Origin: a virus
Strand: one strand, 5' to 3'
Virus record (IMG/VR): IMGVR_UViG_3300027963_000274
Coordinates: 1-27,703 of that record
DNA length: 27,703 bases
The notes below the pieces were generated by a model. The model worked only from the letters and a program-made list of their open reading frames with translations, ran no database searches and had not been told where the DNA came from. How positions within the stretch are numbered: position 1 is the stretch's first letter; each line of letters opens with the position of its first letter. The translations under genes were made by a program, and so were the position numbers. Shown here piece by piece: positions 6,901 through 13,377 of this stretch.

Positions 6901-7548
6901 TTGGACTGGGATAGTATTGAGAAGTGGGACTACATTGTAACAGCGGTTGCTTCTGAGTACCATAGAAAGTTTCCTATGGTAGAGTTAGAGGACATAAGAC
7001 AATCGCTGTATCAATGGTTTACCGAGCACCCAAATAAACTTAAAGACTGGGAAGCAATAGGTGAGAAGGATGCTAAGAATTTAATCTATCGTTCTCTTCG
7101 CAATGATGCATTAGATTATTGCCAACGATGGAAAGCAAAGTCTGTTGGCTATGATGTTACTGATATTCATTACTATGAATCTGAAATAGTTGAAGCATTG
7201 CTACCACCTGTGTTACGTGGTGAGTATGGTGTTACACATAAATTAAATCTTGGTAGACCTGGCAGGCCGTCTGCTCCCGCCGAAGGTGGCAACCTAACTA
7301 TAATGATGTTAGAAGTTGACTCAGGTTATTGGAAGTTAAACAAAGATGATAGAAGAATTATCTTCTTACGCTTTGCTGAACATCTAGACTTCGGCGAGAT
7401 AGCAAACTATTTGGAACTTGGTACTGATAGTGCTGCACGAATGAGACTTAAGCGTGCCATTAGTAGACTTATCAATAAGATAGGTGGGTACAAACCTTAC
7501 AATGATATCGATACTGTTAGTTCTGAAGATCAAGAATCTGAAGAATAG
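6901..7548 (+). CDS. Sigma-70-like transcription factor
   Basis: This 215-residue protein looks like a small sigma factor. Residues about 22-75 contain MVELEDIRQSLYQWF and SLRNDALDYCQRW, resembling region 2, and residues about 155-195 contain DRRIIFLRFAEHLDFGEI and a second helix with RLKRAISRL, resembling the region 4 helix-turn-helix. Between them lies a Pro/Gly-rich linker. It could direct host RNA polymerase to late phage promoters. The start is TTG at 6901, directly after the preceding stop, with GGAAG upstream. It ends the plus-strand operon, overlapping a convergent gene by 19 bases. A non-sigma HTH protein is the alternative. Confidence 0.65.
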   Translation: MDWDSIEKWDYIVTAVASEYHRKFPMVELEDIRQSLYQWFTEHPNKLKDWEAIGEKDAKNLIYRSLRNDALDYCQRWKAKSVGYDVTDIHYYESEIVEALLPPVLRGEYGVTHKLNLGRPGRPSAPAEGGNLTIMMLEVDSGYWKLNKDDRRIIFLRFAEHLDFGEIANYLELGTDSAARMRLKRAISRLINKIGGYKPYNDIDTVSSEDQESEE

Positions 7549-8966: not shown

Positions 8967-9146
8967 TCAGATTTCCTCTGCTTCTACATCAGTTCCAAGT
9001 GGCATATCAAAATCATATACTTCCCACTCCTTAAATGGTGCTTCTATTGCTTGGTTAATTGCCGCCTCGATATCATACTCTGATATATAATATACCAGCG
9101 TAGCACGAACCGCATTAACCTTAACTCTATACTGCTTCGCTTCCAC
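8967..9146 (-). CDS. Small acidic protein of unknown function
   Basis: This 59-residue ORF begins with GTG at 9146, preceded by GAGGGG with 5 bases between, and overlaps the WhiB gene end by 20 bases. It is predicted to be an alpha/beta protein with an acidic C-terminus (GTDVEAEEI). No family was recognised. The good ribosome site and tight packing support it. Confidence 0.6.
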   Translation of the reverse strand: MEAKQYRVKVNAVRATLVYYISEYDIEAAINQAIEAPFKEWEVYDFDMPLGTDVEAEEI

Positions 9147-9540
9147 TTATTCCCCTCTCTTTCATAGCACGCCTAACCTTGCGAGCAAACATTAACTTCT
9201 GTTTGTTAGCAGAGTTCTTCATTGACCTACCTGCCGTAAGCAATCGTTCTCCTGCCATAGTGCCACCATATATACCGAAGTATAACTGATGCCCACGCTT
9301 GCCTATCTCTAGGCAGTTATCTTTAGCAGGACAACCCTTACATACTGATAGAGCAACGATAGCCTTATCTACTTCTGCTTGTACTGCCGTTGAATTTGTA
9401 TTGACGCTACTGTTAGGGTCACTTAAATCAACCTCGCCTGCGAACCATAAGTCAGGGTCGTCGTGCTTAACACATAGACCATTACTTATATCTAAATCTT
9501 TATCGTTAGATAAATATAAATCTATCATACCTTTAGCCAT
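9127..9540 (-). CDS. WhiB-family Fe-S transcription factor
   Basis: This 137-residue protein has the four WhiB cysteines: Cys23, then Cys67 and Cys70, then Cys76, in the pattern C, CxxC, x5, C. The signature GIYGGTMAGER follows, then a basic C-terminal helix. WhiB proteins hold a 4Fe-4S cluster and bind the host primary sigma factor to change promoter choice or respond to redox. Known phage WhiBs, such as that of mycobacteriophage TM4, can interfere with a host WhiB. The 42-residue loop between Cys23 and Cys67 is longer than usual. Its ATG overlaps the upstream stop (TGATG). Confidence 0.9.
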   Translation of the reverse strand: MAKGMIDLYLSNDKDLDISNGLCVKHDDPDLWFAGEVDLSDPNSSVNTNSTAVQAEVDKAIVALSVCKGCPAKDNCLEIGKRGHQLYFGIYGGTMAGERLLTAGRSMKNSANKQKLMFARKVRRAMKERGISGSEAV

Positions 9541-10093: not shown

Positions 10094-10122
10094 ATTATAT
10101 CACTACCAATTCTAGAAGTCAA
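10094..10122 (-). promoter_or_regulatory. Sigma-70-type promoter, TTGACT-17-TATAAT
   Basis: On the minus strand -35 TTGACT is at 10122-10117 and -10 TATAAT at 10099-10094, with exactly 17 bases between. It overlaps the end of the amidotransferase gene and should drive 10028 and the WhiB genes. Start of transcription would be near 10087. Confidence 0.8.
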
Positions 10123-10957
10123 GTGGCTCTTTACTATACCACTTGTTGTCAATAAATCCATACTCATCTCTTATCATACCCTTAGCATTAGGGTTGTAGC
10201 ATAGGCAGTCTAAGAACTGTGCGCTACAATCAAAGCAACACTCACACATCAAGCAGTAGAGTTCGCTATCCCATAAATCTATTAACGCATTACAATTAGG
10301 ACACTCGAACTTGTTTTCCTCATACGCAGTAGGTTCGAAGTGCTTGTCTGCTACTACTATATCATACACACTAGCCTCATACTTGTAAGTCGGGGTAGCC
10401 TTGTGTGAATTATTACTCCACCATATACCATTGTCGTCCCAACTACCAGCACTCTCGTTGATAATATACATCTTGTATTGTGCGCTAGGGTCATTGGTCA
10501 TAACTGCTACCTTACTACCGCTAGCCCACGAACTCATCATATCATATAGATAGTCATCATCTAACGCAGACACACCGCCTAGTCGTGGCAGTAATTCCTC
10601 TGCTAAGATACGAGTATCGCTACGCTTATCATCTTTAGGTATTAGAATATCTAACACGCCATTGTGCGCTAAGTAAGTATCGTGCTCACCTGCTACCTTA
10701 AATGGGTGGCAGTTAAGTTCGTTCTTAACTCCGTGAGTAGCATACCTAGCGTGCCACATAGCATAGCCATTAGGATACTGCTCTCTAAGTTCTAAGAACC
10801 TAGCGATAGACTTCTTAGCAGACATACTGCGCTCAGATATAATACCCTCGCCAGTATCTATCGCAAAGCCAAAGCCGTGTGGGTTCTTACACGCACCCTG
10901 CTTTAGTTCATCTTTACTCGGTGTGGAATTAGGATTACACACCACTAACAAACACAT
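10112..10957 (-). CDS. Class II glutamine amidotransferase-like protein with Cys-rich tail
   Basis: This 281-residue protein is an Ntn-type glutamine amidotransferase. MCLLVV gives Cys2, the nucleophile after Met removal; GFGFAI near residues 28-33, WHARYATHG at 68-76 and LAHNG at 96-100 (Asn99, Gly100) are the glutaminase motifs. The C-terminal about 60 residues hold a Cys-rich, zinc-ribbon-like region (CPNC, CLMC, CCFDC). It would release ammonia from glutamine for a partner ligase. The partner is very probably the amidoligase 11 bases upstream, whose stop lies near this gene's AAGGGGG ribosome site. Confidence 0.75.
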   Translation of the reverse strand: MCLLVVCNPNSTPSKDELKQGACKNPHGFGFAIDTGEGIISERSMSAKKSIARFLELREQYPNGYAMWHARYATHGVKNELNCHPFKVAGEHDTYLAHNGVLDILIPKDDKRSDTRILAEELLPRLGGVSALDDDYLYDMMSSWASGSKVAVMTNDPSAQYKMYIINESAGSWDDNGIWWSNNSHKATPTYKYEASVYDIVVADKHFEPTAYEENKFECPNCNALIDLWDSELYCLMCECCFDCSAQFLDCLCYNPNAKGMIRDEYGFIDNKWYSKEPLDF

Positions 10958-10968
10958 ACTTAACCCCC

Positions 10969-12162
10969 TTACGCATTGACTAACTCTTTACTATTTAGAA
11001 CTAACTTATCCACTCTACTCATACGCATATAGAGTTCAGGATACCTGCCGTTGTTGGCTTGTATCCAGTCAGCGAACCACTCCCAACTTAACGCACCCAT
11101 TTTAACATCAGATAGGGTCAAGTCCCTTGTGTATTCTACTGTTGCGTGTGCTAATTGTATAGCACTAAGAACACTACTAGGGTTCATAGTTCCTCTAAAG
11201 AACCTGAGTTCTAGCGTGTGTTCGTTCTGCGTATTTACCGCAGAATATCTCTCGGTCATAGCCCTGCTAGGGTGTGCGACCTTGTTTGCTAATGTGAAGT
11301 ATGGTCGGTCATACTCATCATACTGCCACACATCACTAAACTTAGCATAGGTAGAACTTCTACCGCCTAACTTCATCATCTTATCTGAGTTCTTATAGAT
11401 AAGGGATAAGAACCTATGCGTGTGTGCGCCACCCTTAAACCCTGCCCTGCTTATATGAATATGAAGTCCGCAACTCTTAGCGTCCCAACTCCTAGCCGTA
11501 TGAACCCTGCGTAGATAGTCTAGCGTAGTCCATAAGTTCTTATGGTCAGCGAAGTAATCTAATGTAGCAGGGTGAGATACCATTTCGAACCCACGATACC
11601 CGCCACTATTGATACTGCTATCCTCTTTAAGATATACGAACTCGCCTAACATCTCGCCAATATACTCGGCACTATCACTTAGGTTGTTATCCCTAATCTC
11701 CATCTCTAATTCTATACCGAAGTGTAGTTTATTCTTATCCTCACCATAGAATATAGGGTGTGGCTTGTAGGAATAATTATTGATTAACCTACCACCACTC
11801 TCACACTCACACTCATCTCGGTTATACTGTTCACAACTATCGCACCAAGTCGCACCATTTTGGCAACAGTCCTCGCACCAATAGACACCAATATCTGCCA
11901 CCTCATAACTAGAGTGGTTGTCCGAGTAAGTATCCTCGCACCTCTCACACCAGAAGGTATAGTTATCAGCGCATACCTCGCAATAAGTTCCACAACCCTG
12001 AACATATCTACTATTATCAGCGTAGTCATACTCCTCGCAACGCTCACACCATATACGACAGTCAGCGCATATCTTATCGCCATTACGATTACTCTCTAGT
12101 TCATCAGGTCTATAATCACTAGAGCAACTAGAACACTCTACTAATTCTATATCCTCAGACAT
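10969..12162 (-). CDS. Amidoligase-family enzyme with multi-zinc-knuckle N-terminus
   Basis: This 397-residue protein has two parts. Residues 1-120 hold at least seven CxxC pairs (such as 10/13, 32/35, 39/42, 61/64, 72/75, 96/99 and 107/110), a tandem zinc-knuckle region. Residues about 145-390 show the COOH-NH2 amidoligase pattern: FGIELEMEI near 148-156, GGYRGFEMVSHP near 187-198, CGLHIHIS near 231-238 and LELRFFRGTMNP near 315-326. This glutamine-synthetase-like fold joins an acid and an amine using ATP. Such enzymes pair with class II amidotransferases, as here. Substrate, perhaps a protein or wall peptide, is unknown. AAGGAG precedes its ATG. Confidence 0.75.
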   Translation of the reverse strand: MSEDIELVECSSCSSDYRPDELESNRNGDKICADCRIWCERCEEYDYADNSRYVQGCGTYCEVCADNYTFWCERCEDTYSDNHSSYEVADIGVYWCEDCCQNGATWCDSCEQYNRDECECESGGRLINNYSYKPHPIFYGEDKNKLHFGIELEMEIRDNNLSDSAEYIGEMLGEFVYLKEDSSINSGGYRGFEMVSHPATLDYFADHKNLWTTLDYLRRVHTARSWDAKSCGLHIHISRAGFKGGAHTHRFLSLIYKNSDKMMKLGGRSSTYAKFSDVWQYDEYDRPYFTLANKVAHPSRAMTERYSAVNTQNEHTLELRFFRGTMNPSSVLSAIQLAHATVEYTRDLTLSDVKMGALSWEWFADWIQANNGRYPELYMRMSRVDKLVLNSKELVNA

Positions 12163-12507: not shown

Positions 12508-12541
12508 CTCTCCTAACCATTAGTGATTAGGCTACCCTCTA

Positions 12542-12570
12542 AGGATACCATACCCTTAAAGGATAGTCAA
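12542..12570 (-). promoter_or_regulatory. Sigma-70-type promoter, TTGACT-17-TATCCT
   Basis: On the minus strand TTGACT at 12570-12565 and TATCCT at 12547-12542 are exactly 17 bases apart, upstream of the small membrane protein gene. Start of transcription would be near 12535. Confidence 0.7.
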
Positions 12571-12574
12571 GCCA

Positions 12575-12790
12575 CTACTTTAATCTATTAAATATCTTCT
12601 CAATAGTGCCGTCATAACTCTCAGCACCCTCGCCGTCAGCACCTTCTAGCCAAACAATTTTCTTACCCACTCTAATCGTAGAACCTTCTCCGTGAAGGCT
12701 CATTAGTAATGGTGCGCCGTAATCATCTGAATTACACTTAGCAATTAAGCGACCTTCAGGGTCGTAAGCGTCTAAGGTTATCTTAGCCAT
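12575..12790 (-). CDS. Small acidic protein of unknown function
   Basis: This 71-residue ORF has a good AAGGAG site before its ATG at 12790 and its own promoter at 12819-12847. It appears beta-rich (AKITLDAYDPEGRLIA and IRVGKKIVWLEG) followed by an acidic helix. No family recognised. It ends just beyond the next promoter, so it is probably a single-gene unit. Confidence 0.6.
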   Translation of the reverse strand: MAKITLDAYDPEGRLIAKCNSDDYGAPLLMSLHGEGSTIRVGKKIVWLEGADGEGAESYDGTIEKIFNRLK

Positions 12791-12810: not shown

Positions 12811-12824
12811 TATACCTAAGTATA
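12811..12824. promoter_or_regulatory. Palindrome TATACctaaGTATA, copy 2
   Basis: Identical over 14 bases to 1591-1604. Here the -10 TATACT of the minus-strand promoter is part of it, so a protein bound here would block that promoter. Confidence 0.5.
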
Positions 12825-12847
12825 GCATACTCAGGGCTACAAGTCAA
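12819..12847 (-). promoter_or_regulatory. Sigma-70-type promoter, TTGACT-17-TATACT
   Basis: On the minus strand TTGACT at 12847-12842 and TATACT at 12824-12819 are exactly 17 bases apart. The -35 lies inside an inverted repeat (AAGTCA at 12841-12846 with TGACTT at 12852-12857) and the -10 inside the TATACctaaGTATA palindrome. Confidence 0.75.
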
Positions 12848-12863
12848 GTTCTGACTTATGGCG

Positions 12864-12914
12864 TGTCCTAGTAGGGTATCGAACCCTAAGCATACCGAAC
12901 CTATCGGCTAGGAC
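12864..12914 (-). ncRNA. tRNA-like RNA lacking an anticodon arm
   Basis: On the minus strand a 7-bp acceptor-like stem forms from GTCCTAG (12914-12908) and CTAGGAC (12871-12865), followed by an unpaired A at 12864. A T-arm of 5 perfect pairs, TAGGG (12888-12884) with CCCTA (12876-12872), closes a canonical TTCGATA loop. A 4-bp D-arm-like hairpin, CCGA (12907-12904) and TCGG (12898-12895), has GG in its loop. Only 6 bases join it to the T-arm, so there is no anticodon arm. No CCA is encoded. It begins 10 bases after the stop of the 12925-13242 gene. It could be a processing signal, a tRNA mimic or a decayed tRNA. Confidence 0.7.
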
Positions 12915-12924
12915 TATCTTACAA

Positions 12925-13242
12925 TTATAGGTAGTTCTCAGCAGGTCTAGCCAATAGACTAGCCATTAGAGCCTTGCGCTCATCAAGCGCAATTCTACGC
13001 AACTCATCAGCACTTAAAGGTTTAGGGGTAGTGTCGGGCTTAGGTTTGGCGTTCTTAATAGTTCGCCGTGCCAGTTTAACCGCTTGACTATCCTCGATAG
13101 CCACGATTAAATTGCCCTCTTTATCACGCACCTCTAGGTTGCTGAACCGCTTACTGCGCGAACCTAGCCACGCAGGGGCAGAACGAACATCTCTAGGGGG
13201 TGTGATAATGCTACCGCTAACCCCATAGGGGTTATACGACAC
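12925..13242 (-). CDS. Basic phage protein of unknown function
   Basis: This 105-residue ORF starts with GTG at 13242, with GAGAGGA and 6 bases before it. It is basic and Pro-rich, with a beta segment (NLEVRDKEGNLIVAIED), a Lys/Pro linker and a C-terminal helix. I recognise no family. It is the first gene of the leftward block and is preceded by a structured leader, and the tRNA-like RNA follows it. A regulator would fit its place, but this is a guess from position only. Confidence 0.6.
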   Translation of the reverse strand: MSYNPYGVSGSIITPPRDVRSAPAWLGSRSKRFSNLEVRDKEGNLIVAIEDSQAVKLARRTIKNAKPKPDTTPKPLSADELRRIALDERKALMASLLARPAENYL

Positions 13243-13264
13243 TATCTATCCTCTCACTAGGGGC

Positions 13265-13363
13265 TAGATTACTTAGTGAGTAAGTGGCTAAGAGCCCTCG
13301 GTCAGCGCACCCGCCGACACTACTAGGAAGGCAAACCCACCCACCTACTTACTAAGTAATCTA
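13265..13363. repeat. Long inverted repeat in the leftward leader
   Basis: Arms 13265-13287 and 13341-13363 are inverse complements over 23 bases with two differences, one of which would be a G-U pair in RNA. A 53-base loop separates them. The leftward transcript from the 13378-13406 promoter would begin just before this hairpin and carry it as a leader of about 130 bases ahead of the GTG at 13242. It may be an attenuator, a small RNA or a protein-binding site. Confidence 0.65.
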
Positions 13364-13377
13364 ACCTTGTAGAACTT

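Follow-up and report, generated by a model that had tools for sequence, protein, structure and literature searches.

The DNA analysed here is a stretch of 27,703 nucleotides from a virus record (IMGVR_UViG_3300027963_000274), referred to as the window. Its genes include terL, a portal gene, a WhiB-like gene (9127-9540) and a sigma gene (6901-7548); an amidoligase-like gene adjoins a class II glutamine amidotransferase-like gene on the minus strand (10112-12162). The terL of the window is 77% identical to that of the Planktophila phages LanE43AprE7 (E7; OX376640) and AprF5 (F5; OX376641), which were isolated on 'Ca. Planktophila' (PMC10202952). By sequence, the window is assigned to the E7/F5 family of Nanopelagicales actinophages, and from this relationship its own host is presumed to be of the Planktophila type. 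ARAGORN found no ordinary tRNA gene in F5 or in ten related genomes and large contigs that were scanned.

A gene for a protein of 105 aa (12925-13242, minus strand), for which no family match was found, ends with a stop codon at 12925-12927, and a second in-frame stop lies beyond it (TAATTGTAA). Between this gene and terL there is a 26-nt inverted repeat (88%; 13341-13366 and 13262-13287). A tRNA-like element (12864-12914) follows on the same strand, and its first base, G1, is located 10 nt past the stop codon, in the spacing and direction given by the initial annotation. Read from 12914 to 12864, it consists of the 5' strand of an acceptor stem, GTCCTAG (G1-G7; 12908-12914); a D-like arm, CCGA-TAGGT-TCGG, with GG in its loop (12895-12907); a linker, TATGCT (12889-12894); a T arm, TAGGG-TTCGATA-CCCTA (12872-12888); the 3' strand of the acceptor stem, CTAGGAC, ending at C72 (12865-12871); and a discriminator A. 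This A73 is followed by C74, G75, C and C, not by CCA (12860-12864). The 16 pairs (7 + 4 + 5) are all Watson-Crick, the T-type loop has 7 nt, A73 is unpaired, and the T arm stacks directly on the acceptor stem to give 7 + 5 = 12 bp. The element therefore has the 12-bp acceptor/T stack, the 7-nt T-loop and the discriminator base of a tRNA but no anticodon arm; 6 nt replace this arm and the variable loop, and the same length is found in close relatives. The predicted minimum-energy structure is a three-way junction of -21.9 kcal/mol (z = -3.5), which additionally closes a T54-A60 pair, and none of 200 shuffles folded as well. ARAGORN did not recognise the element as a tRNA, and Rfam gave no match to it, including at relaxed E-values near the element. 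The description from the window sequence of a minimal tRNA-like RNA, with three arms in tRNA order and 6 bases in place of the anticodon arm, is thus confirmed.

The downstream gene (71 aa; 12575-12790, minus) starts 74 nt beyond C72. The gap contains a promoter-like sequence, TTGACT-17-TATACT, with an extended -10 box (TGC), conserved in close relatives (12819-12847, minus). An inverted repeat, AAGTCA-N5-TGACTT, overlaps the -35 box (12841-12857, minus), and a near-palindrome, CCTGAGTAT-GCT-ATACTTAGG, lies over the -10 box (12815-12835, minus). The arms of the near-palindrome change together in relatives of the L158/L163 type (CGTA.../...TACG). This joint change of both arms suggests an operator. 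The stretch 12815-12857 as a whole resembles a promoter, contains two inverted repeats and is highly conserved. In three other loci (L216, L221 and L238), short palindromes (GTATGAAATTCATAC, TGTAAGATAATCTTACA and TGTCCGATAATCGGACA) recur in the same region downstream of the element and are likely to be operators of phage regulators. In L222, L227 and E7 (L277), the motif GCAAGAC flanks the element as a direct repeat, with one copy immediately 5' of it and the other ahead of the following ribosome-binding site. A terminator reading of the window element was also considered; no terminator-like site was found there, and no T run follows the element. Beyond the downstream gene, a 16-bp hairpin and immediately after it an 8-bp hairpin (12512-12566, minus; z = -4.1) begin about 8 nt past the stop codon. 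Double hairpins (GACTATC...) occur at equivalent places after genes in L171 and L180, and the arms of their second hairpin co-vary.

Pairing in close relatives

The upstream gene, used as a query, gave 15 viral contigs, and the element was present in 15/15. Further close relatives were found by two scans with the flank and the promoter. The covariation alignment consists of 11 distinct versions of the element from close relatives, and the comparison set is without the close relatives KU886271 and KU886273. Across the 16 pairs, 99.4% of pair cells were standard in these 11 versions. Both-sided changes were found in 20 cells at nine of the 16 pairs and were spread over all three helices. No shuffle out of 500 reached the observed value for pairing or for both-sided changes, and sliding the pairing register by one column reduced the paired cells to about 40%. 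The lengths of the helices were constant at 7/4/5.

Each arm of the window element is backed by such changes. Acceptor stems of relatives read GTCGTAG/CTACGAC or GTCCTGC/GCAGGAC, with changes on both sides, and the position of the 3' strand is given by the sequence and the alignment of relatives. The D-like stem has the compensatory variants CCCG/CGGG, GCGA/TCGC and GCAG/CTGC, and the T stem has TGGGG/CCCCA, CAGGG/CCCTG and TAGGT/ACCTA. The linker is fixed in length and variable in sequence. The loops are less constant: 5-nt loops, TCGCA or TCATA, substitute for the T-loop in three of the 11 versions, and two of these three have TAAGT, not TAGGT, as the D-like loop. Given L156, L162 and L166, the idea that a T-loop is essential in every member was dropped. 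The perfect TTCGATA loop emphasised in the initial annotation is real in the window, but it is not universal, since these three close variants and most of the wider family described below differ.

The genes on both sides of the element also vary. In relatives, the upstream gene can be swapped for a second, dissimilar protein with the element retained, and the downstream gene is one of several. This indicates that the element outlives the exchange of its neighbours. The comparison with relatives, in which pairing and both-sided changes exceed those of shuffles, excludes a chance origin, which had already been judged improbable from the window. The initial annotation had also named a pattern that would speak against a functional fold, namely that homologous phages keep the bases and lose the pairing. 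The reverse was observed; relatives keep the pairing and change the bases. On this comparative evidence, the element almost certainly forms a genuine tRNA-like RNA fold that is maintained by selection.

Two other readings are affected by these results. A tRNA gene that has decayed, as proposed at the outset, or was captured and has no function would account for three arms standing in tRNA order. Every helix, however, shows compensatory change, many unrelated sequences share one shape and one place, no host tRNA match was found, and selection on pairing is strong throughout; we therefore regard this origin as hardly credible. The other reading operates on DNA: a cruciform or a recombination joint for the exchange of gene cassettes, or an attachment site, including the copied host tRNA site proposed at the outset. 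The flanking genes are mosaic about a conserved cassette, and some elements are flanked by direct GCAAGAC motifs. Nevertheless, the T-loop/GG signature described below appears on one strand alone, and the fold is kept while the sequence diverges, unlike in a homology-based joint. The exact pattern of the 3' half matched no tRNA gene in a collection of bacterial and archaeal species, the sole match being the same phage cassette on a 3.3-kb contig, and no integrase was found among the window genes scanned. A role in DNA is thus very improbable, and a copied host tRNA site is disfavoured. One contig of 3.3 kb, L168 (RFQY01000240.1), was assigned to a Rhodobacteraceae MAG; it has two elements along with the phage cassette and is probably misbinned phage DNA.

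A wider family beside terL

A wider survey with terL as bait gave 90 loci. These were scanned with a shape descriptor comprising a 12-bp acceptor-T stack, an inserted hairpin, a T-like loop and an A after the stem. A fold descriptor lacking loop constraints was not clearly above shuffles; therefore, constraints on loop and ends were added and then relaxed singly. A loose pattern run on viral contigs gave matches that were mostly due to chance. The shape descriptor gave 53 hits in the 90 loci, whereas a shuffled pass gave 5.4. Of the 53 hits, 51 were located upstream of terL on the strand of the small genes. When the loop constraint was relaxed, elements were also found in most of the remaining loci. 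Of the 66 loci in which 2.4 kb or more of sequence lies upstream of terL, about 59 have one to three elements, a count combined from three descriptor lists. The cultured phage E7 has three elements between successive small genes, and F5 has two. The E7 copies occupy 1387-1434, 1753-1794 and 2163-2208 of its record, on the minus strand. No promoter-like sequence was found between element and next gene in the E7 gaps inspected.

The catalogue from this survey contains 83 distinct sequences of about 40-52 bases, among which 22 different six-pair acceptor ends occur. When each acceptor end was taken once (n = 22), 93% of the seven acceptor positions were Watson-Crick. Reshuffling the 3' strands among these 22 ends gave a mean of 54% and a maximum of 69% in 2000 trials. 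For 75 of the 83 members, the predicted structure of lowest energy is the three-way junction. A73, C74 and a coaxial acceptor-T stack of 11-13 bp recur. This length is as parsed; the descriptors favoured values near 12 bp, and the way in which 5-nt and 7-nt loops are counted changes it by one or two. The outer three acceptor pairs are nearly fixed as G1-C72 (with three G-U), C2-G71 or U2-A71, and C3-G70. N-1 is solely A or C in the 83 sequences and hence cannot pair with A73. Position 75 is never C (83/83), which means that no catalogue member encodes CCA. A scan without demands on positions 1, 72, 73 and 74 returned A73 in 66/87 and C74 in 66/87 distinct target-strand hits. The same scan gave 85 raw hits on the opposite strand, because reverse complements of true elements fold too and the settings were permissive, and solely the base preferences at positions 1, 72, 73, 74 and 75 were used from it. 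The end of the window element, with A73, C74 and G75, agrees with these preferences. In the window and in eight related loci, Rfam found no family above the gathering threshold (tRNA, Y RNA, tmRNA and others), and relaxed thresholds added unrelated weak matches alone. Taken by sequence and predicted fold, the window element is one of a cis-encoded, anticodon-less family that punctuates the small-gene operon beside terL, and this family shares shape, ends and place rather than sequence.

The place is narrow. The distance from stop codon to G1 is 6-12 nt in 67 of the 83 members (frames of at least 40 codons). In 18/83 (L277, L279, L327 and others), a TGAN-GNRA-NTCA hairpin can form in the 16 nt before G1, and this mini-hairpin can contain the TGA stop codon. 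Both observations would suit a fold that abuts the ribosome at the stop codon and alters termination, recycling or reinitiation. We consider such coupling to translation very unlikely, since the next genes often start some 30-75 nt away and have their own ribosome-binding sites, readthrough would enter a non-coding structure, and the window has the second in-frame stop.

A subset of the family resembles tRNA in one more respect. The D-like loop contains GG in 16 of the 20 members with a canonical T-loop and in 2 of the 63 others (Fisher p about 1e-11, a value too small because the sequences are related). The association is present in at least four unrelated sequence groups. Canonical T-loops are TTCGATA, TTCGATT, TTCAATT, TGCGAAC and similar, and the partner D-like loops are TAGGT, AGTGGC, GCTGG and TGGT. 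Contacts like G18-55 and G19-C56 in tRNA would give rise to such a link, and we infer that they underlie it. In the window, TAGGT occurs together with TTCGATA, so that a GG of the G18-G19 type is present and the contact can be proposed from sequence. About three quarters of the 83 are without the canonical T-loop/GG pair and have loops such as TTCACGA, AGCGAGA and CTCAAGA. As judged from the loops, mimicry of the tRNA elbow is confined to a subset that includes the window and is unsupported for the other three quarters.

Elbow-type members mimic parts that are read by several tRNA enzymes, and across the family the outer pairs and A73-C74 vary unusually little. A processed, stable small RNA might therefore act as a decoy, as had been proposed earlier, and bait the CCA-adding enzyme, RNase P or Z, T-loop modification enzymes or a tRNA-cleaving defence. 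Strict placement after stops, with up to three elements per operon, points instead to a role in cis, and most members are missing the canonical T-loop. A decoy is thus quite unlikely.

Processing by host tRNA enzymes as a candidate role

Several known RNAs resemble the phage elements. In the punctuation model of mitochondria, as outlined in PMC4919922 and PMC8601606, intergenic tRNAs are excised and mRNAs are thereby released. The t-elements of plant mitochondria are likewise tRNA-like structures in transcripts and are cut there by RNase P-type enzymes; PMC4919922 names RNase P or Z as the nuclease for t-elements and for the tRNA-like elements of MALAT1 and MEN-beta. Here, by contrast, dsDNA phages of bacteria carry many sequence-unrelated copies in small-gene operons, and other enzymes would be involved. 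MALAT1 mascRNA and MEN-beta menRNA are tRNA-like elements at the 3' end of an RNA, where RNase P and RNase Z cut (PMC4919922). These belong to eukaryotic nuclear lncRNAs, whereas the phage elements are located behind protein genes and are without a remnant anticodon arm. Plant RNA viruses such as TYMV also mimic tRNA, by means of tRNA-like structures at the 3' end, which are reported RNase P substrates (PMC11143913). The phage element differs from the TYMV type, as it is a plain three-way junction inside operons and has no CCA. TYMV-type structures have a pseudoknotted acceptor and a CCA end. In the bacterial Y RNA YrlA, a module that resembles tRNA and has D and T loops is part of a larger two-module RNA that binds Ro; the phage elements, unlike YrlA, have no Rfam match. 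T7-like phages have RNase III sites between early genes, which are long hairpins and serve as intercistronic processing signals. The double hairpin at 12512-12566 may resemble this kind of site more than the tRNA-like element does. No description of an anticodon-less phage element family was found in Rfam or in the literature searched, the coverage of which is incomplete. To our knowledge, phage RNase P substrates are individual cases, and we know of no dispersed intercistronic family with tRNA-type D/T loops. On sequence and fold, the elements are classed as putative tRNA-like processing elements, not as tRNAs, as the anticodon arm is lacking.

Among the roles listed in the initial annotation, processing by RNase P is favoured by the intercistronic place after stops, the tRNA measuring length, the unpaired N-1/A73 and G1-C72. 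The 12-bp acceptor/T stack is described as the measuring device of RNase P, and this enzyme cleaves model hairpins composed of acceptor, T-stem and T-loop (PMC11143913). Its natural substrates include mRNAs and phage transcripts, namely the C4 antisense RNA of P1/P7, M3 RNA and the T4 gene 32 mRNA (PMC11143913). The phage elements keep the half of a tRNA that is measured by the enzymes and drop the decoding half, lie inside messages after stops and encode no CCA, which fits the tRNA-maturation nucleases. An encoded CCA would block RNase Z. The spacing in the 67 members and the three elements in the E7 operon place the family, in the direction of the genes, between or at the ends of protein genes, as expected of punctuation. 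We propose, at slightly less than an even chance of being right, that the elements are signals for host RNase P and/or RNase Z to cut phage mRNA between cistrons. Somewhat more tentatively, the family may represent an anticodon-less tRNA, defined by shape and placed after small genes, with which host tRNA-maturation enzymes split messages, that is, tRNA punctuation without a tRNA. In the proposed mechanism, the nascent polycistronic mRNA would fold the tRNA-like module, and host tRNA-processing enzymes would mistake it for a precursor tRNA. Cleavage would fall immediately 5' of G1 (RNase P), immediately 3' of A73 (RNase Z) or at both places. The upstream message would then be parted from the downstream message and keep some 6-12 nt as its 3' UTR. 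Transcripts such as gene-element-gene in E7 would be split in this way, and cleavage would set mRNA ends and relative stability. The anticodon arm would be absent because neither aminoacylation nor decoding is needed.

Some features argue against processing. RNase P usually pairs with R73-C74-C75. As A73-C74 is kept and C75 is absent, at most two of these three 3' pairs are possible in the phage elements, and the usual C75 contact is missing. In sequence, G1-C72, Y2-R71, C3-G70 and A73-C74 vary less than a tRNA-like shape by itself would require, a hint that they are recognised by something more specific. In the lineage of the window, cleavage from the downstream gene is not obviously needed, since a promoter follows the element. 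In the close relatives L171 and L180, long hairpins lie at equivalent places, so that a plain structured 3' end may suffice. These points lead to another explanation, in which the compact fold would stay on the upstream mRNA and block 3'-5' exonucleases or help to define the end, and would not be a substrate of tRNA enzymes. It agrees with the strong hairpins behind genes at similar places in the window and L171/L180, and with the fact that the distance of 6-12 nt after the stop is the constant feature while the downstream part varies (promoter, operator-like palindrome or leader hairpin). A plain hairpin would be enough for such protection. It is left unexplained why the stack is like that of a tRNA, why A73-C74 is unpaired, why C75 is excluded and why GG goes with the T-loop, and the T run is absent after the element. 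Protection of the 3' end is therefore possible but rather unlikely.

Cleavage by host RNase P and/or RNase Z, the reading preferred here, can be tested directly, because the phages E7 and F5 and a host are in culture, and the 83 sequences are a ready substrate library for both enzymes. The family would supply widespread natural minimal tRNA mimics and indicate what persists once decoding goes. The hosts of this phage group are very abundant freshwater Actinobacteria (Nanopelagicales). If the proposal is true, their phages shape the ends of their mRNAs by way of the tRNA processing of the host.
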